Assembly (NCBI GenBank): GCA_029547805.1 | Contig: JAKPOP010000017.1 | Location: 248,001-312,000, forward strand | Length of the DNA: 64,000 nt | Source: Deltaproteobacteria bacterium | Lineage (GTDB): Bacteria; Myxococcota_A; UBA9042; DTJE01 | Direction: 5' to 3' | Shown here: piece after piece, positions 45,016 to 64,000 of the stretch | How the letters are laid out: every line of letters starts with the position of its first letter | Numbering within the stretch: position 1 is the first letter of the stretch | Program-made: the position numbers and the translations under genes | Notes under the pieces: model-generated | The model's database searches: none | What the model was told of the DNA's origin: nothing | What the model saw: only the letters and a program-made list of their open reading frames with translations

Positions 45016-47457
45016 TCACCCGTCTCCACGCCTCACGATGACCCCGTGGAGGCCCTCCCCCTCGGGGGCCACGCACACGATCAAGAACCGCGCCCCTTCC
45101 CGATGGATTCGCTCCAGGGCCGGCTGTCGAATCGCCTCCTGGAGCCCCCGTTCCATCGCCGGGGCCACCGGGTCCTTCGGGTCCCGCGATTCCAGCAGTG
45201 CCTGCAACGCCTGCGGTTCCACGTGCAGCAGGCAGCCGTGTTCCCGCTGGAGGTCCTCCCGAACCCGCTCCACCAGGAGGGCCAGCAGTTCCCGGGTCTC
45301 GTCCCCGGTCACGGCGGGGAAGGGCAGCCGCAGGTCCAGGGCGTTCCAGAGGTCGGCGCTGAGACGGCTCGAGGCCTCGGGGATCCACCCGGACCCGGCC
45401 GGGGCCTCGGTCCCTCCACGACCGAACCCAACGGTCCCCGTGGGCCCCGTCCCGGGTTCCATCGCCAGTACGTGCACGCTGTTGCGGAAATCGAGGCGCC
45501 GGCCCCGGCGATCCGTGATGGTCCCCTCGGCGAGAACCTGGGCCAGGAAGGACTGGATCAATGGATGGGCCCGTTCCGGACGGTTCCAGAAGAAGACCCG
45601 GAAGGGCCGACGGGTCAGGACGTTGGACAGCAGGCCGCTGTCCTCGTAGCCCACGAATCCAGGCGGCGACCCGGCCAGCAGGGAGAGGGTATGGGGCTCG
45701 GCGTATTCCGAGAGTTCGACCTCCACCAGGGCCTCCGGGCTGCCAAACAGGAACTCGGCGGTGGCCCGGGCGAGGGTCCGCCTCCCCGATCGAGGAGGTC
45801 CGACCAGCAGCAGGGCGGCCAGCGGGCGCCGACTTCCGAATCGATTCCAGTTCCGGGACAGCACCTGGACCAGGGACTCGATCACCTCCCGGTGGCCCAC
45901 GACGCGCCGTTCCAGGAAGTCCTGCATCCGGCTCCATCGGGCCTGGGGATCCGCCAGTTGCTCCACGGGGATGTCCACGAGGTCCGACAAGACCTGGACC
46001 ACGTCCCGGACCCCGACCTCCCCCTTCCCCTCCCTCCGGGCCCGGGCCCCGGCCCGGTCCAGGAGGTCCACGGCCTTGGCCGGAAGGCATCGGTCCGGGA
46101 TCAGGCGGTCGGTGAGGCGCACGGCCGCCCGCAGGGCCTCCGCCTGGAACTCCACGCGGTGCCATTGGGCATAGCGGGGGGCCACGCCAGCCAGGATGCG
46201 CTCGGCCTCCTCCAGGGAGGGCTCCCGCAGGTGGACCGGCTCGAATCGCCGGTTCAAGGCGGGGTCGTTCTGGATGGTCCTCGTGTACTCCCCGAAGGTG
46301 GTGGCGCCGATACAGGGGAGTTCCCCCCGGGCCAGGGCCCCCTTCAGGTCGTTGGAGGCATCGGCTCCCCCGTCCCCGGCCCCGGCGCCGATCAGGGTGT
46401 GGATCTCGTCGATGAAGAGGATGATCCGCCCCTGGGAGGCCATCACCTCGTCCTTGAGAGCCCGGAGTCGGGCGGCAAAGGCGCCCCGCATCTCGGTTCC
46501 CGCCACCAGGTCCGCCACCGACACGGAGATCAGGACCCGCCCCTCCAGGCCGGGAATGCCTCCGCCCCGGCGCACCATCCAGTCTGCGACGCCCTCCACC
46601 AGGGCGGTCTTGCCCACGCCCGGGTCCCCCAGCAGGAGGGGATTGTTGCCCCGCCGCTTGCAGAGGATGTCCACGACGCGGTTCAGTTCCTGCTCCCGGC
46701 CGACGAGGGGGTCGATCCGCCCCGCCAACGCGTCCTCGCACAGGTTCCGGCCCAGGGTCGCCAGGGTGGGATGGCGGGTCGGGTCCAGACGGAAGGGGCT
46801 TCCCTCGGGGGAGGCCCAGCATCGCTCCTCGGTCGCAGCCTCGGGCTCCCGCTCTTCGGCGTCGGTCCCGACCTCCTCGATCAGGAACTCCACCGGGAGG
46901 TCGTCGTCGCTCTGGACCCGGGGTGCGGACCGCACGGGAACCTGGACCACCGGCGACGGACCGGGCCAGGAGACCGGGGGCACCGGGGCCCGGGGCGGAT
47001 TTCCCCGGACGGCCACCGTGACCCGGTCCCTCGCCTGCCTTCGGAGGTAGGGATCCATCAGGTGGGCCATGGCCTTGGTCCGGAGTTCGTAGAGCGACGC
47101 CCCGGAGGCCTGGAGCAGCCGGGCGGCCCGAGAATCCCCCAGGCGGGCGAAGGCCAGCAGCATGTGCACCGTGGTGGCCTGCCGGGACCCCACGTTGCGG
47201 GCGATTCGGAGGGCCTGCCACGGAACCGCATCGCCCATCTCCGGGGCCTCCTGGGGCACCTGTCGCAGGCGGTCCGCCAGGGCCTCCGGTTCCAGCCGCA
47301 TCTCCATCAGCACCGACTGGGCCTCGCAGGGCACCAGGAAGATCCCCAGCACCAGGAAGCCGCTGTCCATCGATTCCCGTCGCGCAGCGGCCAGTTCCTC
47401 GGCGCTTTCCAGGACCTTTTGAAACTCCTGGGAGAACGGGATGACTTCTTCCACCAT
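45016..47457 (-). CDS. ClpA-like AAA+ unfoldase with degenerate second ATPase domain
   Basis: 813 residues in Clp order: N-domain (1-140), an acidic linker, D1 (245-475), D2 (515-800), no middle coiled coil, hence ClpA-type. D1 is intact: GDPGVGKT (277-284), FIDE (348-351), LNRRF. D2 has lost its key residues: the P-loop reads GPPRSGRRT (553-561) with Arg for the essential Lys, Walker B is replaced by RVFFWNRPERAHP, and the Arg-finger region reads WNALD instead of RNRLD. Yet the D2 pore loop GFVG and a VGF tripeptide (676-678), where the ClpP-docking loop should be, remain. No clpS or clpP is adjacent. Confidence 0.88.
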   Translation of the reverse strand: MVEEVIPFSQEFQKVLESAEELAAARRESMDSGFLVLGIFLVPCEAQSVLMEMRLEPEALADRLRQVPQEAPEMGDAVPWQALRIARNVGSRQATTVHMLLAFARLGDSRAARLLQASGASLYELRTKAMAHLMDPYLRRQARDRVTVAVRGNPPRAPVPPVSWPGPSPVVQVPVRSAPRVQSDDDLPVEFLIEEVGTDAEEREPEAATEERCWASPEGSPFRLDPTRHPTLATLGRNLCEDALAGRIDPLVGREQELNRVVDILCKRRGNNPLLLGDPGVGKTALVEGVADWMVRRGGGIPGLEGRVLISVSVADLVAGTEMRGAFAARLRALKDEVMASQGRIILFIDEIHTLIGAGAGDGGADASNDLKGALARGELPCIGATTFGEYTRTIQNDPALNRRFEPVHLREPSLEEAERILAGVAPRYAQWHRVEFQAEALRAAVRLTDRLIPDRCLPAKAVDLLDRAGARARREGKGEVGVRDVVQVLSDLVDIPVEQLADPQARWSRMQDFLERRVVGHREVIESLVQVLSRNWNRFGSRRPLAALLLVGPPRSGRRTLARATAEFLFGSPEALVEVELSEYAEPHTLSLLAGSPPGFVGYEDSGLLSNVLTRRPFRVFFWNRPERAHPLIQSFLAQVLAEGTITDRRGRRLDFRNSVHVLAMEPGTGPTGTVGFGRGGTEAPAGSGWIPEASSRLSADLWNALDLRLPFPAVTGDETRELLALLVERVREDLQREHGCLLHVEPQALQALLESRDPKDPVAPAMERGLQEAIRQPALERIHREGARFLIVCVAPEGEGLHGVIVRRGDG

Positions 47458-47490: not shown

Positions 47491-47519
47491 GCAATAGCCT
47501 TCCGGCGCAACCGTGTCAA
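47491..47519 (-). promoter_or_regulatory. Promoter of the ClpA-like gene
   Basis: Minus strand TTGACA (47514-47519), 17-base spacer, TATTGC (47491-47496). It is back to back with the promoter of the MepA-like gene within a 211-base divergent region that contains no other gene. Confidence 0.5.
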
Positions 47520-47617
47520 GGCTTCCGCGAGTGCCTGGGTCCCCTCGGCGAGGGGAAGGACTCCGCCCGTCCGGGCGGTCCGGATCGCAAGGTCCCGTGG
47601 TCGGCCTGGACACGGAC

Positions 47618-47646
47618 TTGGCAGGGGGCCCGGCCTTCGGCACAAT
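47618..47646 (+). promoter_or_regulatory. Promoter of the MepA-like lipoprotein gene
   Basis: TTGGCA (47618-47623), 17-base spacer, CACAAT (47641-47646), 23 bases before the ATG. Confidence 0.45.
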
Positions 47647-47668
47647 GCTTCCTGGAAGGGGACGCACC

Positions 47669-49264
47669 ATGCGGGTTGTCGCCGGAGTGTGGCTGGTGAC
47701 CCTGGCCGGCTGTCTCTCGGGCAGCCGGGGTCCCGCCGGTCCGGGAGACTTCGCGGACCCGGTCCCCGCGACCCGGATCGATCCCTCCGCCCCGGGACTG
47801 GCCCGACGCCCTCCCACGCTGCAACTGGATGCCCCTCCGATGGTGGCCATCCCCCGGTCCCATCCGAAGGTCGGGACACCAATGGGCAAGGGGTCCCTCT
47901 CGATCGGAACTCCCACGACCGGCTTCGTGGTCTCCTGCCGAATGCTCCCGGAGGAGGGCCCCGGGCACTATGTGCTTCCTGAGCACCGGCAGCGGAGAAC
48001 CCGATGCGCCACCGACGACCTCGTGGAGGCCCTGCTCCGGGCCGCCGACCGCGTCGGCCGGGATCACCCCGGGGCCCGGCTGGCGGTGGGAAACCTGGGC
48101 CGCGATGGAGGGGGGGACCTGCCCTGGAGCGTCTCCCACAACTCGGGACGGGACGCGGACCTGGGGTTCTACCTGATGGACGACGCCGGCCGGCCCTACG
48201 AGGCCCGATCCCTGATACCCCTGGATGCCCGAGGGGAGGGAACCGAGGACGGGCGGCCCGTCCGCTTCGACGTGCCCCGAAACTGGGCCCTGGTGAAGGC
48301 CCTCCTGACCGACCCGACGATCCAGGTCCAGTGGCTGTTCCTGTCGAATCCCCTCAAGAAGCGCCTGCTCGCCCATGCCCGGTCCCGCAAGGAGCGGCCG
48401 GACCTGGTGGCCCGGGCCGAGGAGGCCCTGGCCCAGCCCCGGCGGTCGGGGCCCCACAATGACCACCTGCACCTTCGAATCTCCTGTCCGCCCGACGACG
48501 TCCTGGAGGGTTGCCGGGACATCGGAACGGCACGGTCCTGGTTCCGGGACCCGACGCCGCGCATCGAGGCCCGGGTGCGGCAGTTGCAGACCCTGGCCCG
48601 CCGGGGGAGCCCCCGGGTCCGGTCCGATGCCCTGACGGTGCTGGGGCGCATCGGGACCTCGGAGGCCGTCTCAACCGTGCTCCGGGGTCTCGGGGACCCG
48701 GAGGTGGAGGTCCGCCGGACTGCGGCCCGATCCCTGTTCGAGGGAGGAATCCCCGAGGGAGAAAAGGAGGTGGTGCGGCACCTCCGGGGCGAGCCGGACG
48801 ACGAGGTCTGCTGGACCCTGATCCGGGCGCTGGAAAGGCACCTGAATCCCTGGCGGCGGGCGGCCATCCTGCCGGACCTGCTGGACCTGGATCGCGAGGT
48901 CGTCCGGGACCTCGGCCTCTTTCGACTCACCACCTCGATCCGGTCGGAGGCCCTGGAGATGGCCGGTCGACTGCCGTTGGCCCTGGTCCCGCTCCAGGTC
49001 CGCAAGGCCATCGCGGAGGAGGGCGTCTCGAAGGACCAAATTGCGGCGATCTGGCGGGGAGCCGACGCGGGTCCCAAGGGGTCTGGCGACCTGAAGCAGG
49101 ACCGCCGGCTGCAGGTCCTCGAGGAGAGCCGGGACCTCCGGGGCGTACTGCTGTGGTGGATCCGGTCCTGGCCCCCGGACCCCACCGCCGTGACGGGTCC
49201 TCCCGTCGCCCTGCCGGTGCCGGACCCCGAGACGGCACCTTCCGATGCGGCGGCCGCCGATTGA
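47669..49264 (+). CDS. MepA-like murein endopeptidase fused to HEAT repeats, lipoprotein
   Basis: 531 residues from the ATG at 47669. Lipobox LAGC (Cys15). Residues 70-275 match the penicillin-insensitive murein endopeptidase (M74) fold: H157 and D164 in SHNSGRDADLGF and H263, H266, H268 in GPHNDHLHLRI, the zinc-binding set of LAS peptidases. This class cleaves D,D cross-links between murein stem peptides. The C-terminal half (about 295-440) consists of HEAT-type repeats such as SEAVSTVLRGLGDPEVEVRRTAARSLF, not found in E. coli MepA. It probably acts in the periplasm attached to a membrane. Its stop codon overlaps the promoter of the FHA gene. Confidence 0.85.
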   Translation: MRVVAGVWLVTLAGCLSGSRGPAGPGDFADPVPATRIDPSAPGLARRPPTLQLDAPPMVAIPRSHPKVGTPMGKGSLSIGTPTTGFVVSCRMLPEEGPGHYVLPEHRQRRTRCATDDLVEALLRAADRVGRDHPGARLAVGNLGRDGGGDLPWSVSHNSGRDADLGFYLMDDAGRPYEARSLIPLDARGEGTEDGRPVRFDVPRNWALVKALLTDPTIQVQWLFLSNPLKKRLLAHARSRKERPDLVARAEEALAQPRRSGPHNDHLHLRISCPPDDVLEGCRDIGTARSWFRDPTPRIEARVRQLQTLARRGSPRVRSDALTVLGRIGTSEAVSTVLRGLGDPEVEVRRTAARSLFEGGIPEGEKEVVRHLRGEPDDEVCWTLIRALERHLNPWRRAAILPDLLDLDREVVRDLGLFRLTTSIRSEALEMAGRLPLALVPLQVRKAIAEEGVSKDQIAAIWRGADAGPKGSGDLKQDRRLQVLEESRDLRGVLLWWIRSWPPDPTAVTGPPVALPVPDPETAPSDAAAAD

Positions 49265-55121: not shown

Positions 55122-58100
55122 TCAGGGGATTCCGTTGGTCAACACGAGCCGGTAGGACTGGCAGGTCACCGGTGCCGACGGCTCTCGATAGACCCGGATC
55201 AGGAAGGCATTGCCGTTGTCGATGCACCGATGCGTCCCCGGCGAGGCCTCCCCGGGACACGTCCCGCACCGGTCCATGGTCCCGTGGCGGGCCAGGCAGG
55301 CGGCCAGGCTGGTCGGTTTCGCGCAGGTCGGCAGGTAGGACTGGTTGCAGGGGCACTCGCCCAGCGTGTCGGTGTAGAAGTCCACCCGCTTCTCCCACGC
55401 CGTGACGCCCCGACAGAAGGACTGGTCGTCGCAGGCCGCCGTGTAGACGTCCAGTCGGAAGGTGTCCTGAGGATTCGTGGCCAGCACGAACCGGGCGTGG
55501 AAGCGGTCGCATCCGTCCAGGAGCCCGAGGGGGTCCAGGTCGGCGGCGGTGACCCGGAACCAGTCCTCGTCACCGTAGGAGGTCAGGTTCCCGATGACCT
55601 CCAGGGTCTGCCCCGAGTCCCCGAGGGTCCCCAGGTCCAGGGCGTGGGCGCAGTCCTGGCCTCCCAGGTGCTCCCAGGCGTCGCCCTGGCACTCGCAGCC
55701 GTCGGCGCCGCTCTCGTTGAGGTCGTACCAGGCGGGCTGGTCCCCGGTTCGAGGGTCGCACTGGTAGAGGCAGCGACCCGCCGCGGTGCAGGAGACGAGA
55801 GTCCCGTGGGGAATCGCCCCGGGGTCGAGGGGACACAGGGCCGACAGACTCCCCTCGTCCGTGAGGCCGTTGCAGTCGTCGTCCCGGGCGTTGCACCGCT
55901 CCGGTGCCCCGGGATGAACCGAGGCCCGCTGGTCGTCGCAGTCGCCGCCCAGGGTGGTCGTGTAGCCGTCCCCGGGCCCGCACCGGCAGAGGGTCGTCGA
56001 CCCACCGAAGCCGTCCCCGTCCTGGTCCTTGTACCAGGCGACGCACTCGGTCGTCCCCGGTGGGTCCGTGGCCCCGTCGCAGTTGTTGTCCTTGCCGTCG
56101 CAGACCTCCTGGGCGACGGGGTTCACTGCGGCGTCGGTGTCGTCGCAATCCCCGGCACCGAGGCCGCGGTAATTCCCGGAGGCACTGCACAGACACTGGC
56201 TCAAGCCCGTCTTTCCGAAGCCATCGCCATCGAAGTCGTAGTACCGGGTCACGCAGCCCGTGGTCCCGGCGGGGTCCGTGAAGCCGTCGCAGTCGTTGTC
56301 CTTGCCGTCGCAGACCTCGAGCCCCCCTGGCCGCACCGCCGGGTCCTGGTCGTTGCAGTCCCCGGGCACCTGGGCCCGGTAGACCCCCACCGGTCCACAG
56401 AGGCACTCGGAGTCGTCGGTCCGTCCCGTGCCGTCCCCGTCATCGTCCCGGTACCAGGTCTCGCACCCCGGGGTCCCGGGGGGGTCGGCAACGCCGTCGC
56501 AGTCGTCGTCCACCCCGTTGCAGACCTCGACCTGGCCCCCGACTGCGGTCCATCCGTAGCGATCCCGGGTCACGTCGCAGGTCCGGCAGGCGTGCTGCGG
56601 GTCCATGGACCCATGGAAGTAGCAGCGCCCCTCGATCAGGCACCAGGACTCGGCCAGGGGGTTCGCGCATCCGCCCTCCCCGTCGCAGACGTCGTAGGTG
56701 CAGGAAAGACCGTCACTGCACGAGTAGAGGCTCCCCAGGCACACGCCGTCCTGGCAGAGGTCCCCGCTGGAACAGGCATTCCCATCGTTGCAGGCCATCC
56801 CCGTGAGGGGAGTCCAGGCCCCGGGCACCGTCTCGGGCCGGCACTCCTGGCAGGAGTTCGCCGGATTGCGATCCCCCGGATTCCAGCACGCCCCGTCCAC
56901 CAGGCAGAACCCCGGCAGCAGGTCGAAGCGGCAGGTCCCATCCCCGTTGCAGGAGTCCGCGGTGCAAGACCGGCCGTCATCGCACCCATAGGGAATCCCC
57001 AGGCACTGCCCCCCCTGGCAGAGGTCCGTGGAGGTGCAGGCATTGCCATCGTTGCAGGGCAGTCCGTCGAGGGGGCTGTAGGCGCCCTGGTCCTCGGCCG
57101 GCAGGCATCCCAGGCAGGGATTGCCGGGTGCGGGGGTCCCCTGGGCCACGCAGGCCCCGGCGATCAGGCACCACTCCGAGTCCACCAGGTGGCGGCAGAG
57201 GCCCTGGGGGTCGCAGAAGTCGGTGGTGCACGACAGTCCGTCGTCGCACCCGGTGGAGAGTCCCACGCACTGCCCGTCCTGGCAGACATCCCCGGTCGTG
57301 CAGGGGTTCCCGTCGTCGCAGGAGACGCCGCTCCGGGGGGTCCAGGCCTCCGGCTGGACCTGGGAGTCGCAGACCAGGCAGGGCGTGTCGGGGGACGCCT
57401 CCTGGTCGGTCACGCACCGATCTCCGATCCGGCAGAAGCCCGGCACCACCTGGTGCAGGCAGCCCCCCTGGCCGTCGCACGCATCGGTGGTGCAGGCAAT
57501 GGCGTCATCGCAGGAATAGGGAGACCCCTGGCAGGCCCCGGCGGTGCAGTGGTCCCCTTCGGTGCAGGCGATCCCGTCGTCGCAGGGGGCCTGGTCCAGG
57601 TAGGTCCACCGGAGGGCATCCTGGTTCGGGTCACAGACGTTGCAGGGATTGCGGGGGTCCACGGCACCCTGGAGATGGCAGGCCCCCTCGATGGCGCACC
57701 ACCCTGTCGCGACGCCATGGCGACAGGTGCCCGCGAGGCAGTAGTCCTCGGTGCAGGCCAGGTCGTCGGTGCAGTCCCGGAGGATGCCGCCGCCGCAGAC
57801 CCCGTCCAGGCAGATCTCCCCGACGGTGCAGAGGTCCCCGTCGTCGCAGAGGGCCCCGTTCCGGGAGGTCCACTGGGAGTTTGAGACCCCCGGCTGGCAC
57901 CAGAGGCAGGCATTCTGGGGCCGGGTCATCCCGACGGCCCAGCACTGGCCGTCGATCAGGCACCAGCCCTCCCGGAGGGTGTGGACGCACTGCCCCTCGA
58001 GGTCGCAGGAGTCCGCCGTGCAGGGCAGGTCGTCGGCGCAGGCCTGCCCCAGGCCCACGCAGAATCCCCCCTGGCACTGGTCCTGGGCCGTGCAGGGATT

Positions 58101-61100
58101 GCCGTCATCGCAGGTCCACCCGTCGTCCCGGGGCGTGAAGTCCTCGGGGGTCGTCGCCGGGTCGCAGAAGCGGCAGGGCTCCGTGGGGTCCGCCGCCCCG
58201 GTCTCGAAGCACTGGTTCCACACCAGACACCAGCCCTCCTGGAGCAGGTGCTCGCACTCCCCGGTGCCCAGGCAGCGGTCCGCCGTGCAGGCCAGACCAT
58301 CGTCGCAGGAATAGGGAATCCCCCCGCAGACCCCGTCCACACACCGGTCGTCCCGGGTGCAGGACTGGCCATCGTCGCACTCGCCCCCCTGGGTGGTGGG
58401 CGTCCAGCCCGTGGTGCTGTAGAGGGTGCGACACCGCTGGCAGGGATTGCCCGGATCCGCGGCCCCCTCGGGGTGACAGACGCGATCGATCAGGCAGAAG
58501 CCGGGGATCAGGGAGTGCCGGCACCCGCCCTGGCCGTCGCAGGCGTCCTCGGTGCAGGCGATGCCATCGTCACAGGTCAGCGAAGTCCCGCGACAGGCCC
58601 CCTCGTGACAGGCGTCCCCGAAGGTGCAGGGGTCGTTGTCCTGGCAGGAGGCACCCTCCCGGGAGGACCAGACATCGGTGGCGACGTCGGCCAGACAGGC
58701 CAGGCAGGGATTCGAGGGATGGGGCAGGCGATTGGGGCGACAGGCCCCGTCGATGAGGCACCACCCCGGAAGCAAGGAGTAGTCGCAGGTCCCGTCGCCA
58801 CGACAGGCATCGGCGGTGCACAGCAGACCATCGGAGCAGCCATAGGACTGTCCTTCGCAGACCCCCTGGTTGCAGGTGTCCCCGAAGGTGCAGGCGTTCC
58901 CGTCCTCGCAGGAGGCCCCATCGGTCTTGGGAACCGCCTGGCAGAGCCCCGAGACCGGGTTGCAGAGGCCCGGGTCATGACAGGGGGTCGGGGGCGGACA
59001 GAAGACCGGCGCCCCCTCGCAGAGGCCCTGGTGACACGCATCCATCGTGGTGCAGGGATTGCGGTCGTTGCAGGGGGTCCCCTCGGGGGCCAGGGGGGCC
59101 GAGCAGGCCCCCGTCTGCGGGTCGCAGACCCCCGGGAGGTGGCAGTCATCGATGGCCGGACAGGGGATCGGGCTCGCCCCGGTGCAGACCCCCGCCTGAC
59201 AGGAGTCGACCCGGGTGCAGGGGTTCCCGTCGTCGCAGGCGGCCCCATCGGGCTTCCGGGGCGTCGTGCACTCGCCGGTCGCAGGGTAGCAGACCCCTGC
59301 CAGATGGCACGGATCGACGGCCTCGCAGGTCTTGGGGTCCGTCCCCACGCAGGCCCCGGCGACGCACCTGTCGGTCTGGGTGCAGAGATTGCCATCGTCG
59401 CAGGGGCTCCAGTCGCCCTTGACCGGAGGAACGCACAGACCGGTGGCCGGGTCGCAGGTCCCGTCCAGGTGGCACGAGTCCGGAGCCGGGCAGGTCACCA
59501 GGGAACCGCCGGTGCAGGCCCCCTGCACACAGGAGTCGTTCCGGGTGCAGGGGTTCCCGTCGTTGCAGAAGGAACCGTCCACCTTCGGAGGATGCCCGCA
59601 GGCACCCCCCTGGCAGACGTCGTTGGTACAGGGATTCGTGTCCGGGGTGCAGGCGGACCCGTCGGGTCGGGGCGTCGGGATGCAGCCCCCCTGTCCGTCG
59701 CAGGTGTTTCGGGAGAGGCACTCGGTGATGGGGCAGACGTAGGGGGTTCCCTGGCAGGTGCCCGTGGCGCAGGTGTCGCCAGAGGTGCACGGATTGCCGT
59801 CATCGCAGGCCCCCGTGACGGGCTCGTGATGGCAGCCGTCCAGGGCACAGGAGTCCTGGGTACAGGGGTCCCCGTCATCGCAACTGATGGGGGTCGACGG
59901 CTGGCAGACCTTGTCCCCGCAGACCCGGGCCGGGCGATAGACGAGCCCGGTACAGGAAGCCGGCTGGCACTCGGCCTGGTTCGCCGTGAAGACGCAGCCC
60001 CCCTGCCGTGCATCGCAGGTGTCGTCGGTGCACACGTTGCCGTCGTCGCACTGCCTCGGCAGCCCCGCCCCGCAGGCCCCGCCCTGACAGGAGTCCATCA
60101 CCGTGCAGGGATTCCCGTCATCGCACGGAATCCCGTCATGGTCCGACCAGTCGGTCGGGTTCCCCGGAGCGCACCACCGGCAGGGATTGTCCGGCTGGGC
60201 CTGTCCCCCCTGCCAGCACTGCCCGGCAATGGCGCACCATCCCGGTGCCACGGTGAAGTGGCACCCTCCGTCCCCGTCGCAGGAGTCCGCCGTGCAGGCA
60301 AGCCCATCGTTGCAGGCGTAGGAGACGCCCTGGCACCGGCCCCCCAGACACTGGCCCCCATAGGTGCAGGGGAGCCCGTCATCGCACGACGCCCCATCCC
60401 GGTCGGACCAGGAGACCCAGGACCGGGCCGGATCACAGACGCGGCAGGGATTGTCGGGATGCAGCGTCCCGCCGGCCTGGCAGACCCCCAGGATCAGGCA
60501 GAAGCCGGCCTCGATCACGTGGGTGCACGTTCCCATGCCGTCGCAGGCATCGGCGGTGCATCCGATCCCGTCGTCACAGGAGTACGGCGTCCCCTGGCAG
60601 GCCCCCTCCCGGCATCGGTCCGAGTAGGTGCAGGGGTCTCCATCGTTGCAGGGCGTGGTCAGGTACTGCGTCACGCAGCCCTGGTCGGGCAGGCAGAGGT
60701 CCTGGGTGCAGGGATTGCCGTCATCGCAGGATCGCGGGGTTCCCCCGAAACAGCGCCCCAGCAGGCAGGAGTCCTGGAGCGTGCAGGCGTTGCCGTCGTC
60801 GCAGGGCGCGGTGTTGGGCGTGAACCGACACCCCGATGCCGGGTCGCAGGTGTCGTCGGTGCAGGGGTTCCCGTCGTCGCAGGTCACGGGGTTCGACCCG
60901 ATGCAGGACCCTTCCTGGCACTGGTCGGTCCGGGTGCAGGCCGACCCGTCGTCGCAGGGCCGGGTGTTCGGGACGTGATAGCACCCGACCAGCGGGTCAT
61001 CACAGCGGTCGTCCGTGCAGGGATTGTGGTCGTCGCAGTCCGGTCCCTGGCCGACGCAGCGTCCCGCCTGGCAGGAATCGCCGGTGGTGCACCCATTGCC

Positions 61101-64000
61101 GTCGTCGCAGGGCCAGTTGTCGGTCATCCGGACGTGGAAACAGCCCCCGGCCTCCGGAAGGCAGTTGTCCTCGGTGCAGGGATTCCCGTCGTCGCAGGGG
61201 TCCGGGGAGCCCGGCTGGCAGGTCCCGTTCACGCAGAAGTCACCCCGGGTACAGGGGTCCCCGTCGCTGCACGGGATCTCCAGGGCCAGGTGACGGCAGC
61301 CGGACACCGGCAGGCAGTCATCCGCCGTGCAGGGATTGCGGTCGTCGCAGTCCGCCGAGGCACCCGGGACGCAGGTCCCCTGGTAGCAGTGGTCGTTCAC
61401 CGTGCAGAGATTGCCGTCCTCGCAGGAGGCCTGGTTCGGCGAGTGGACGCACCCGATCCCCGCCACGCAGAGGTCGTCGGTGCAGGGATTCCGGTCGTCG
61501 CAGTCCAGGGCCGTCCCGACACAGATCCCGTCCTGGCAGGAATCCTCGAGGGTGCAGGAGTCGCCGTCGTCGCAAGGCACCGGTCCTCGGGGCGACCAGC
61601 CCCGAGGGTCCCGCAACGGGTCGCAGACCAGGCAGGGATGTTGGGGGTTCTCCTGGCCAGCCCCCAGGCAGGCCCCGGAGATCAGGCAGGTCCCTTCCAC
61701 CACCTGGACCTGGCATCCCCCGATGCCGTCGCAGGACTCCCGCGTGCAGTCCAGTCCGTCGTCGCAACGGTAGGGAAGACCGGCGCATCCACCACCTGGC
61801 TGGCAGACGTCCCCAGCCGTGCAGGGATCGCCGTCGTCGCAGGCCCCCTCTCCGGGGACCGACTCGCAGCCCCGAGCGGGATGGCACCGCTCCCGGGTGC
61901 AGGGATCGCCATCATCGGGGCAGAGGCCATCGTCCGGGACGTTCTGGCAGCCGTCGGGGGTGCACAGGTCCCGGGTGCAGGCCACCGCGTCGGTGCAGTA
62001 GACGCGAACGGGGTCCGGGCATCGGCCCTCGGCGCAGTTCCGGGCGGGATAGAACACGCCCCCGTCGCACTGGGCCTCGGCGCAGGGCAGGGTGTGGAAG
62101 GAGTGCACACAACCCTGAATCTGGTCGCAGGAGTCGCTGGTGCAGTAGTTGCCGTCGTCGCAGGAGATGGTCTCCCCGGCCAGGCAGAGGCCATCCTGGC
62201 ACCGGTCGTTCCGGGTGCAGGGACTTCCGTCCTCGCAGGGAAGCGTATTGTTCCGGTGGTAGCACCCCTGGGCCGGGTCGTCGCAGAGGTCGTCGGTGCA
62301 GGGATTCCCGTCGTCGCAGTCGAGACCGTCCCCGGAGCACCGCCCCCGCTGGCACCGGTCGTTCTCCGTGCACTGGTTGCCGTCGTTGCAGGGGAAGCCA
62401 TCGGCGACGGCCTGGAAGTAGCAGCCCTGGAGAGGGTCGCAGTGATCCGTCGTGCAGGGGTTGTCGTCGTCGCAGACCCGCCGGGGCCCTCCAACGCAGC
62501 GTCCGTCCACGCAGACATCCCCGGTGGTGCAGAGGTCCCCGTCATCGCAGGCGCCGACGACAGGCTCGTGAACGCATCCCAGGCCGGAGACGCAGGAGTC
62601 CCGGGTGCAGGCCTCCCGGTCGTCGCAGTCGGCGGAGGCGCCCGCCAGGCAGACGCCCGAGAGACAGGCATCCCCGACGGAGCAGGGGTCCCCGTCATCG
62701 CAGGGCGCCCCATCGCGCACCTGGAAGCGGCACCGCCCCATCACGCAGGTCCCCGGGGCGGTGTAGCAGGGGTTCGGGGCCACCGAGCAGTCGATCCCCT
62801 CGCAGGGGTCCCCGATGCAGGCGGTCCCGGAGCACCCGTAGGTGCAGATCCACTCCTGTCGCTGGTACTGGCACTCCCCGGCCACGCAGGTTCCTTGCTG
62901 GCTGTAGGAGATGATCACCCCGTCATCCTCGAGGCAGACGTTCGGCGGCGGGGTCTCGCAGGAGACGGGCCGTCCCCGGCATCGCCCCTGGTCGCAGGCA
63001 TCGTTCCGGGTGCAGGCGTTCCCGTCATCGCAGGCATCGCCCGAGACCGGCTGGTGCACGCACCCCTGCCCCCTCTGGCACAGGTCCGCGGTGCACGGGT
63101 CGCCATCGTTGCAGTCCACCGCCGTTCCCCGGCAGGTCCCCGCGGTGCACCGGTCCCCCACGGTGCAGTCGTTTCCGTCCTCGCAGGCCAGGCCGTCGAG
63201 CGGGAGGTACTCGCAGGCCCCGGCGTTGCAGCGATCCTCGGTGCAGGGGTTCTGGTCGTTGCAGAGGGGACTTCCCAGGCACTCCCCGGCCACACAGACG
63301 TCGTTCTGGGTGCAGGGGTCCCCGTCGTCGCATCGCGAGCCACTGGACGGTTCCGACACGCATCCGAACCCCGCCTCGCACCGATCGGCGGTGCAGGGGT
63401 CCCCGTCGTCGCAGGTCCGAGGGGACCCGCTCCGACACGCCCCGGAATCGCAGAAATCCCCCTCGGTGCAGGGGTCTCCATCCTCGCAGTCCCCCGAACG
63501 GGGCTCGTGGTAACAGCCCACCAGGGGGTCGTCGCACAGGTCCACCGTGCAGGGGTTGCCATCATTGCAGTCCAGGCCCTCGCCCCGGCACTGCCCCCCA
63601 AGGCAGCGGTCCCCGGCGGTGCACCCGTTCCCATCATCGCAGGATTGCCCTTCGTTGGTCGGGTCATGGCGGCATCCCTGGCCCGGCTGGCACCAGTCCC
63701 GGGTGCAGGGGTTGCCATCGTCGCAGGGGTCCACCTCCCCCCCGACGCAGGCCCCCTCGTTGCAGTGGTCCCCGAGCGTGCAGGGTTCCCCGTCACTGCA
63801 AAGGCCCGCCACCGCCGTGTGCTCGCAATTCCGGAGCGTCGAACTGCACGCATCGGCCGTGCAGGAATTCCCATCGTCACAGGAACGCTCCACGCCCCGA
63901 TGACAGGTCCCGCCGGCGCAGAAGTCCCCCACGGTGCACCAGTCCCCGTCCTCGCAGGAGGCGCCATCGGCGACCGGGTATTCGCACAGGCCGTCGCGGC
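55122..64000 (-). CDS. Giant secreted Cys-rich DDGNPCT/MopE repeat protein, 5' end outside the window
   Basis: At least 2958 residues; the frame stays open through the right edge, so the N-terminus is missing. Most of the chain is a string of several dozen short units around CDDGNPCT-x-D-x-C-x(3-6)-GxCxG, resembling slime-mould CTDC repeats. Interspersed are 12 copies of a second module, CLIxGxC-x10-NPCxxC. Near the C-terminus four MopE-type repeats (CNGVDDDCDG...DGDG...GDCNDQDP) suggest calcium or metal binding. A 190-residue cap ends the protein and matches the fragment at 1-656. No transmembrane or sorting tail is present. It is probably a disulfide-rich secreted fibre or adhesin, by inference. 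Confidence 0.9.
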   Translation of the reverse strand, partial: RDGLCEYPVADGASCEDGDWCTVGDFCAGGTCHRGVERSCDDGNSCTADACSSTLRNCEHTAVAGLCSDGEPCTLGDHCNEGACVGGEVDPCDDGNPCTRDWCQPGQGCRHDPTNEGQSCDDGNGCTAGDRCLGGQCRGEGLDCNDGNPCTVDLCDDPLVGCYHEPRSGDCEDGDPCTEGDFCDSGACRSGSPRTCDDGDPCTADRCEAGFGCVSEPSSGSRCDDGDPCTQNDVCVAGECLGSPLCNDQNPCTEDRCNAGACEYLPLDGLACEDGNDCTVGDRCTAGTCRGTAVDCNDGDPCTADLCQRGQGCVHQPVSGDACDDGNACTRNDACDQGRCRGRPVSCETPPPNVCLEDDGVIISYSQQGTCVAGECQYQRQEWICTYGCSGTACIGDPCEGIDCSVAPNPCYTAPGTCVMGRCRFQVRDGAPCDDGDPCSVGDACLSGVCLAGASADCDDREACTRDSCVSGLGCVHEPVVGACDDGDLCTTGDVCVDGRCVGGPRRVCDDDNPCTTDHCDPLQGCYFQAVADGFPCNDGNQCTENDRCQRGRCSGDGLDCDDGNPCTDDLCDDPAQGCYHRNNTLPCEDGSPCTRNDRCQDGLCLAGETISCDDGNYCTSDSCDQIQGCVHSFHTLPCAEAQCDGGVFYPARNCAEGRCPDPVRVYCTDAVACTRDLCTPDGCQNVPDDGLCPDDGDPCTRERCHPARGCESVPGEGACDDGDPCTAGDVCQPGGGCAGLPYRCDDGLDCTRESCDGIGGCQVQVVEGTCLISGACLGAGQENPQHPCLVCDPLRDPRGWSPRGPVPCDDGDSCTLEDSCQDGICVGTALDCDDRNPCTDDLCVAGIGCVHSPNQASCEDGNLCTVNDHCYQGTCVPGASADCDDRNPCTADDCLPVSGCRHLALEIPCSDGDPCTRGDFCVNGTCQPGSPDPCDDGNPCTEDNCLPEAGGCFHVRMTDNWPCDDGNGCTTGDSCQAGRCVGQGPDCDDHNPCTDDRCDDPLVGCYHVPNTRPCDDGSACTRTDQCQEGSCIGSNPVTCDDGNPCTDDTCDPASGCRFTPNTAPCDDGNACTLQDSCLLGRCFGGTPRSCDDGNPCTQDLCLPDQGCVTQYLTTPCNDGDPCTYSDRCREGACQGTPYSCDDGIGCTADACDGMGTCTHVIEAGFCLILGVCQAGGTLHPDNPCRVCDPARSWVSWSDRDGASCDDGLPCTYGGQCLGGRCQGVSYACNDGLACTADSCDGDGGCHFTVAPGWCAIAGQCWQGGQAQPDNPCRWCAPGNPTDWSDHDGIPCDDGNPCTVMDSCQGGACGAGLPRQCDDGNVCTDDTCDARQGGCVFTANQAECQPASCTGLVYRPARVCGDKVCQPSTPISCDDGDPCTQDSCALDGCHHEPVTGACDDGNPCTSGDTCATGTCQGTPYVCPITECLSRNTCDGQGGCIPTPRPDGSACTPDTNPCTNDVCQGGACGHPPKVDGSFCNDGNPCTRNDSCVQGACTGGSLVTCPAPDSCHLDGTCDPATGLCVPPVKGDWSPCDDGNLCTQTDRCVAGACVGTDPKTCEAVDPCHLAGVCYPATGECTTPRKPDGAACDDGNPCTRVDSCQAGVCTGASPIPCPAIDDCHLPGVCDPQTGACSAPLAPEGTPCNDRNPCTTMDACHQGLCEGAPVFCPPPTPCHDPGLCNPVSGLCQAVPKTDGASCEDGNACTFGDTCNQGVCEGQSYGCSDGLLCTADACRGDGTCDYSLLPGWCLIDGACRPNRLPHPSNPCLACLADVATDVWSSREGASCQDNDPCTFGDACHEGACRGTSLTCDDGIACTEDACDGQGGCRHSLIPGFCLIDRVCHPEGAADPGNPCQRCRTLYSTTGWTPTTQGGECDDGQSCTRDDRCVDGVCGGIPYSCDDGLACTADRCLGTGECEHLLQEGWCLVWNQCFETGAADPTEPCRFCDPATTPEDFTPRDDGWTCDDGNPCTAQDQCQGGFCVGLGQACADDLPCTADSCDLEGQCVHTLREGWCLIDGQCWAVGMTRPQNACLWCQPGVSNSQWTSRNGALCDDGDLCTVGEICLDGVCGGGILRDCTDDLACTEDYCLAGTCRHGVATGWCAIEGACHLQGAVDPRNPCNVCDPNQDALRWTYLDQAPCDDGIACTEGDHCTAGACQGSPYSCDDAIACTTDACDGQGGCLHQVVPGFCRIGDRCVTDQEASPDTPCLVCDSQVQPEAWTPRSGVSCDDGNPCTTGDVCQDGQCVGLSTGCDDGLSCTTDFCDPQGLCRHLVDSEWCLIAGACVAQGTPAPGNPCLGCLPAEDQGAYSPLDGLPCNDGNACTSTDLCQGGQCLGIPYGCDDGRSCTADSCNGDGTCRFDLLPGFCLVDGACWNPGDRNPANSCQECRPETVPGAWTPLTGMACNDGNACSSGDLCQDGVCLGSLYSCSDGLSCTYDVCDGEGGCANPLAESWCLIEGRCYFHGSMDPQHACRTCDVTRDRYGWTAVGGQVEVCNGVDDDCDGVADPPGTPGCETWYRDDDGDGTGRTDDSECLCGPVGVYRAQVPGDCNDQDPAVRPGGLEVCDGKDNDCDGFTDPAGTTGCVTRYYDFDGDGFGKTGLSQCLCSASGNYRGLGAGDCDDTDAAVNPVAQEVCDGKDNNCDGATDPPGTTECVAWYKDQDGDGFGGSTTLCRCGPGDGYTTTLGGDCDDQRASVHPGAPERCNARDDDCNGLTDEGSLSALCPLDPGAIPHGTLVSCTAAGRCLYQCDPRTGDQPAWYDLNESGADGCECQGDAWEHLGGQDCAHALDLGTLGDSGQTLEVIGNLTSYGDEDWFRVTAADLDPLGLLDGCDRFHARFVLATNPQDTFRLDVYTAACDDQSFCRGVTAWEKRVDFYTDTLGECPCNQSYLPTCAKPTSLAACLARHGTMDRCGTCPGEASPGTHRCIDNGNAFLIRVYREPSAPVTCQSYRLVLTNGIP
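55845..56540. repeat. Four tandem MopE-type (Asp-rich) repeats
   Basis: Coding repeats of about 55 codons, each with a C-G-DDDCDG or DNDCDG core followed by YxDxDGDGFG and GDCxDxD. Spacing and acidic residues suggest calcium-binding loops. Confidence 0.85.
56560..64000. repeat. Long array of DDGNPCT-type coding repeats
   Basis: About 7.4 kb of degenerate in-frame repeats, unit length mostly 25-45 codons with a conserved Cys-Asp-Asp-Gly core. The array continues past the window. Units differ too much to be a CRISPR or a simple satellite, and the pattern is only regular at the protein level. Confidence 0.9.

Follow-up and report, generated by a model that had tools for sequence, protein, structure and literature searches.

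A Myxococcota-specific Clp protein with a catalytically degenerate D2 ring, probably driven by D1 alone

Background

The roles of the two rings in double-ring Clp unfoldases have been probed mainly through engineered Walker mutants. Among natural machines with a weakened ring, NSF resembles the protein described here in that D1 drives and D2 is nearly inactive, but the D2 of NSF still binds nucleotide to support assembly, and NSF belongs to the classic AAA clade and has no ClpP. Pex1/Pex6 is likewise a double-ring AAA+ assembly, and one of its rings has degenerate Walker B and Arg-finger sites, although there it is D1 that is dead and D2 that drives, and the complex is eukaryotic and heterohexameric and has no protease partner (PMC10518020). 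ClpI of Actinomycetota offers a different likeness, as a lineage-restricted third class of double-ring Clp protein found by sequence, but it is reported with intact ATPase modules and an M-domain, and some of its subclasses lose the ClpP motif instead (PMC10149685). D2 of ClpA is reported to supply the main motor activity, with D1 as an auxiliary motor that can step in upon D2 failure (PMC9663308).

Here we describe a Clp protein encoded in the window, that is, the whole stretch of 64,000 nucleotides that was analysed. Degenerate rings are already known from Pex1/Pex6 and NSF, and a dead D2 in a Clp partner of ClpP would be a new variant; searches of a library of open-access papers, which includes few subscription ones, found none.

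Gene layout and group identity

The gene (45016..47457, minus strand, as are all of its features given below) starts with ATG and encodes a double-AAA+ Clp protein of 813 aa. Its N-domain (aa 1-136, 47050..47457), which the predicted model shows as helical with high confidence and which carries a weak Pfam Clp_N match at 82-131, is followed by a fast-evolving low-complexity linker of low pLDDT (aa 137-228, 46774..47049) and by a D1 AAA+ module with its small domain and without an M-domain (aa 229-500, 45958..46773; Pfam and alignment). The D2 AAA+ module (aa 508-813, 45019..45936) is, from the alignment and the predicted structure, folded and catalytically dead. The Pfam matches (the weak Clp_N, AAA with AAA_lid_9, and AAA_2) give the layout of Clp/Hsp100 class 1, with the N domain followed by D1 and D2 in the ClpABC order.

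All NCBIfam scores lie far below their cut-offs [ClpB 437 bits (cut-off 1232), ClpV 424 (885), ClpA TIGR02639 420 (993)], which places this double-ring Clp protein outside the named families. In the D1 tree, E. coli ClpA joins further ClpAs and the canonical ones of the class itself in one clade with 100% SH-aLRT support, and the window's group falls outside it, forming with two further sequences from Myxococcota metagenome-assembled genomes a 100% clade of its own; this Myxococcota-only group sits nearer ClpC, with weak support (80). Those relatives that carry names assign the source organism to Myxococcota. A pattern scan of genome contigs yielded chiefly ClpC of other phyla, its patterns being generic, and these sequences served only as outgroups.

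The first-pass annotation had called the protein ClpA-like, which describes its architecture well (N domain, D1, D2, no M-domain, a ClpP docking loop) but not its D1 phylogeny. It also differs from ClpA in its dead D2, in the loss of the D1 pore-1 Tyr and in a genome that lacks the partner ClpS. Similarly, ClpC provides the best PDB sequence and fold matches and shares the VGF loop, but the window protein has a dead D2, a D1 pore-1 loop that is not KYR/RYR, and no M-domain; neither the M-domain that marks ClpC nor the long one that marks ClpB is present in any group member inspected. By these comparisons, the protein belongs to a Myxococcota-specific Clp group that is distinct from ClpA.

Loss of catalytic residues in D2

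To compare the two modules we used a homology-anchored alignment of the window protein, 33 further group members, 16 canonical ClpA-type proteins and ClpB. Judged by its motifs, the window D2 is CATALYTICALLY dead, while the catalytic motifs of D1 are intact. In D1 the alignment places a Walker A motif GDPGVGKT (aa 277-284, 46606..46629), a Walker B motif FIDEIH (aa 348-353, 46399..46416) and, within NRRF, the Arg fingers R403 and R404 (46246..46251). D1 had been described as complete, which holds for catalysis but not for the pore, because the pore-1 loop (aa 320-325, 46483..46500) reads GTEMRG instead of GTKYRG, with Met in place of the KYR Tyr. This tyrosine is missing in every group member, where xMR, xLR or xFR replaces KYR, and it is likewise absent from the ClpE/ClpL-like sequences of the set.

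In D2, the Walker A remnant GPPRSGRRT (aa 553-561, 45775..45801) stands opposite GPTGVGKTE, with Arg for Lys, and VFFWNRPERAH stands opposite VILLDEIEKAH, so that both Walker B acids are gone (remnant FFWNR, aa 622-626, 45580..45594; Asp to Asn and Glu to Arg). The sensor-1 segment LAMEPG faces MTSNLG, with Glu for Asn at aa 667 (45457..45459); LWNALD faces EF.NRLD, with Ala for the Arg finger (WNALD, aa 704-708, 45334..45348); and APAMERG faces GARPL.R, with loss of the sensor-2 Arg. Two loops are retained, the pore-1 loop GFVG (aa 600-603, 45649..45660) within SPPGFVGYE and the tripeptide VGF (aa 676-678, 45424..45432), which fits the [ILV]GF/L pattern of the docking loop of ClpP-docking unfoldases. 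Class 1 of Clp/Hsp100 is characterised by two active ATPase sites per subunit, and in the window protein the D1 site is intact whereas the catalytic residues of D2 are all lost. These losses (Walker A Lys, Walker B acids, Arg finger) and the two retained loops had been proposed from the single sequence, and the alignment bears them out, the loops being conserved across the dead clade described below. Shifted or misaligned motifs, which the first-pass annotation had named as grounds for abandoning its reading, are rejected, as the alignment reveals no displaced intact motif within D2.

An AlphaFold2 model built with 51 sequences has a mean pLDDT of 84.8. D2 in this model reaches a mean pLDDT near 90 and has the standard AAA+ order of strands and helices, the VGF loop (673-683) and the linker are flexible, and the closest solved structures are those of ClpC in ClpC-ClpP complexes. 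The AAA+ fold of D2 is thus predicted to be retained, and the model supports the fold alone and is silent on nucleotide binding, because its alignment is dominated by homologues with a live D2.

Distribution and origin of the dead D2

Relatives came from the window's family f1 (13 genomes), from a single order-mate (f2) and from 38 other members of the class. Every f1 member with a readable D2, together with f2, lacks the Walker B Asp and Glu, the sensor-1 Asn, the Arg finger and the sensor-2 Arg. Across the ten sequences of this dead clade each of these five residues is kept in 0/10 and the Walker A Lys in 5/10, while the pore-loop aromatic and the docking Gly-Phe are each present in 10/10. 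The order-mate, on a long branch, shows the same state with its P-loop gone altogether, and W624, immediately before the Walker B site, never varies within f1 and f2. Interrupted copies in two genomes, G001 (two contig ends) and G004 (a run of N), are assembly breaks and were rejected as signs of gene decay; a pseudogene or sequencing error was likewise rejected, given the intact frame, the dN/dS values and the occurrence of this state throughout the family.

Orthologues with a normal D2, which had been named as a possible refutation, do occur at the level of the class (families f3-f8, f10 and f12), but within the family all orthologues readable in D2 are dead. Because most other families of the class have a normal D2, the dead D2 is, on these sequences, a derived state fixed in f1. 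A second degenerate pair was found in family f9 (genomes G020 and G033; loci L040 and L032), where the Walker B Asp-Glu has become His-Asn or Arg-Asp and the Arg finger is lost but the Walker A Lys is kept. The tree of D1 alone recovers f1 and f2 as one clade (99/98) and places f9 elsewhere, implying two changes by parsimony, and f9 may represent an independent loss; a single clade of all dead-D2 members (f1, f2 and f9) is not rejected as a topology (p-AU 0.40), so that two losses are a parsimony count and not a proof.

To describe the pattern of erosion, we took the 58 D2 columns with at least 90% conservation among live relatives and assigned them to classes by known function. In the dead clade, retention is 0.09 for the 7 catalytic columns, 0.95 for the 6 pore and docking columns and 0.59 for the rest [permutation P = 0.0002 for the catalytic and P = 0.005 for the pore and docking columns; because the ten sequences are related, these values describe columns and not independent events]. 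The erosion of D2 is selective and exceeds chance decay. Nei-Gojobori dN/dS is 0.03-0.10 for D1 and 0.13-0.25 for D2, indicating purifying selection on D2 that is relaxed in comparison with D1; the D2 value reaches 0.445 in the last 133 residues within the window's own genus. The constraint is strongest on D1, and all readable members retain its catalytic set, including the Walker B Glu and the Arg fingers.

ClpA, ClpS and ClpP in the same genomes

The first-pass annotation had proposed a search for a second intact clpA and for clpP. The window's genome encodes ClpB, two ClpX-type proteins, HslU and two ClpPs, and a profile search at the TIGR02639 cut-off found no canonical ClpA in it, so that a second intact ClpA is rejected. 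No TIGR02639 match over the cut-off was found in any f1 genome, and ClpS was not found in the genome, its family or its order, whereas ClpP genes are present in 53/53 genomes searched. Families f1, f2, f3 and f9 all lack both ClpS and a TIGR02639 match over the cut-off, and families with ClpA-ClpS have a live D2. D2 is dead in three of the four families without ClpA, f3 being the exception, and in none of the seven with ClpA, which is suggestive of a link between D2 death and the absence of ClpA, although the association rests on one or two events.

The two ClpPs of the genome differ at the active site. ClpP2 keeps Ser, His and Asp, and ClpP1 (L041:1501-2040, contig C4) reads GQASGF where a sister species has GQASSF, which makes its catalytic Ser a Gly. 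ClpP1 of two other family members (G002 and G008) also lacks this Ser (GQAAGL), the remaining members keep it, and the Ser-less form resembles ClpR of cyanobacteria and plastids. ClpP1 adjoins the second ClpX (L003:1312-2442, plus strand, contig C4), which has no zinc-binding domain; the ClpX with the zinc domain lies on contig C19.

Mechanism

Our preferred reading, to which we give a probability of about 0.55, is that the protein is a ClpP-docking double-ring unfoldase in which ATP hydrolysis would be confined to the D1 ring. Since the residues for D2 hydrolysis are lost and the loops for gripping and docking are kept, the machine probably runs on the weaker D1 ring alone. D1 would bind and hydrolyse ATP, as its motifs suggest, and D2, having lost all catalytic residues, would be unable to hydrolyse it while still forming the predicted AAA+ ring, a passive one whose pore-1 loops would still border the channel and take hold of the polypeptide. 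D1 would move this ring through the covalent linkage within each subunit, and the VGF tripeptides in their flexible loops would dock ClpP. Such a machine would feed ClpP more weakly, at a pace set by D1, with substrates that are loosely folded or unfolded, and would act without the ClpS N-degron adaptor. Several points speak against this reading: in E. coli ClpA the main motor is D2 (PMC9663308), a D1 motor lacking the pore-1 tyrosine, as in this group, would have a poor grip, D2 loops may fail to move productively in the absence of nucleotide, and the docking of ClpP is read from a tripeptide in a flexible loop.

A more specific picture can be offered only tentatively, namely a ClpP unfoldase, occurring in nature, with hydrolysis and grip split between its rings, the only working ATPase being a D1 without its pore aromatic and the only aromatic pore loops lying in a dead D2, fixed across a Myxococcota order and possibly evolved twice, in lineages that have lost ClpA-ClpS, and running in some genomes on a ClpP pair with a Ser-less member. 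A natural, conserved machine with D2 switched off would show whether a D1 ring can sustain ClpP-dependent proteolysis in a living lineage and whether a ring that does not hydrolyse ATP can have working pore loops, and the distinct Myxococcota Clp group marked out here includes sisters with a normal D2 as matched controls.

It is possible, though we think it unlikely, that the protein is instead an adaptor or holdase that sits on ClpP and opens its gate, so that unfolded polypeptide enters or is held, with ATP at D1 serving hexamer assembly or an on/off switch and no pulling. The loss of the principal motor residues and of the D1 pore-1 aromatic would fit, as would the invariant docking Gly-Phe, but a pure clamp has no need of hydrolysis and the D1 catalytic set is kept in all readable members at dN/dS 0.03-0.10; the 0.95 retention that includes the D2 pore loop argues in the same direction.

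Less probable still is a remodeller or weak disaggregase that works without ClpP, its VGF loop being an ancestral leftover. Neither ClpP gene is near the Clp locus, both being on other contigs, and ClpI is a precedent for related unfoldases losing their ClpP motifs (PMC10149685), but an unused loop would be expected to erode like the catalytic residues, and the docking Gly-Phe stands at 10/10 amid diverging D2 columns. We also consider it improbable that D2 binds nucleotide without hydrolysing it, as a static assembly ring comparable to that of NSF or to the D1 of Pex1/Pex6, and does no gripping; the dead ring of Pex1/Pex6 does bind ATP and mediate assembly (PMC10518020), and half of the dead clade keeps the Walker A Lys, but the window protein lacks it, G013 has no recognisable P-loop, and conservation of the pore loop would be needless. 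A gene decaying after loss of the ClpA-ClpS pathway would explain why D2 evolves 2-4 times faster than D1, the 0.445 in the last part of D2 and the occurrence of D2 loss in lineages without canonical ClpA and ClpS, but it is very hard to reconcile with a frame kept open across the family, dN/dS well below 1, selectively retained pore and docking loops, the invariant W624 and a long-branch order-mate in the same state.

Neighbouring genes and other observations

No conserved functional neighbour of the Clp gene was found among the loci of relatives. A single-TM protein of unknown family lies 3' of the gene in most relatives and was set aside as an operon partner, since it is about 18 kb away in the window's genome, and a link to a defence system was also rejected, the matches being weak generic AAA ones only. 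A divergent gene conserved beside the Clp gene in the family (47513-49264 in the window, plus strand) encodes a Murein endopeptidase M74 domain with HEAT repeats. Further along, a frame of 2936 aa (55122-63932, minus strand) carries many Dicty_CTDC repeats and MopE-type metal-binding motifs, and its product is probably a giant repetitive secreted protein. Elsewhere in the genome, a 1133-aa frame (L064:3235-6636, minus strand, contig C29) joins a Clp-like AAA_2 domain, a receiver resembling that of response regulators, an FtsH-like AAA domain and an M41 peptidase (HEAGH); full-length relatives occur in G001 and G008, whereas G013 has a shorter match and G048 has two fragments.
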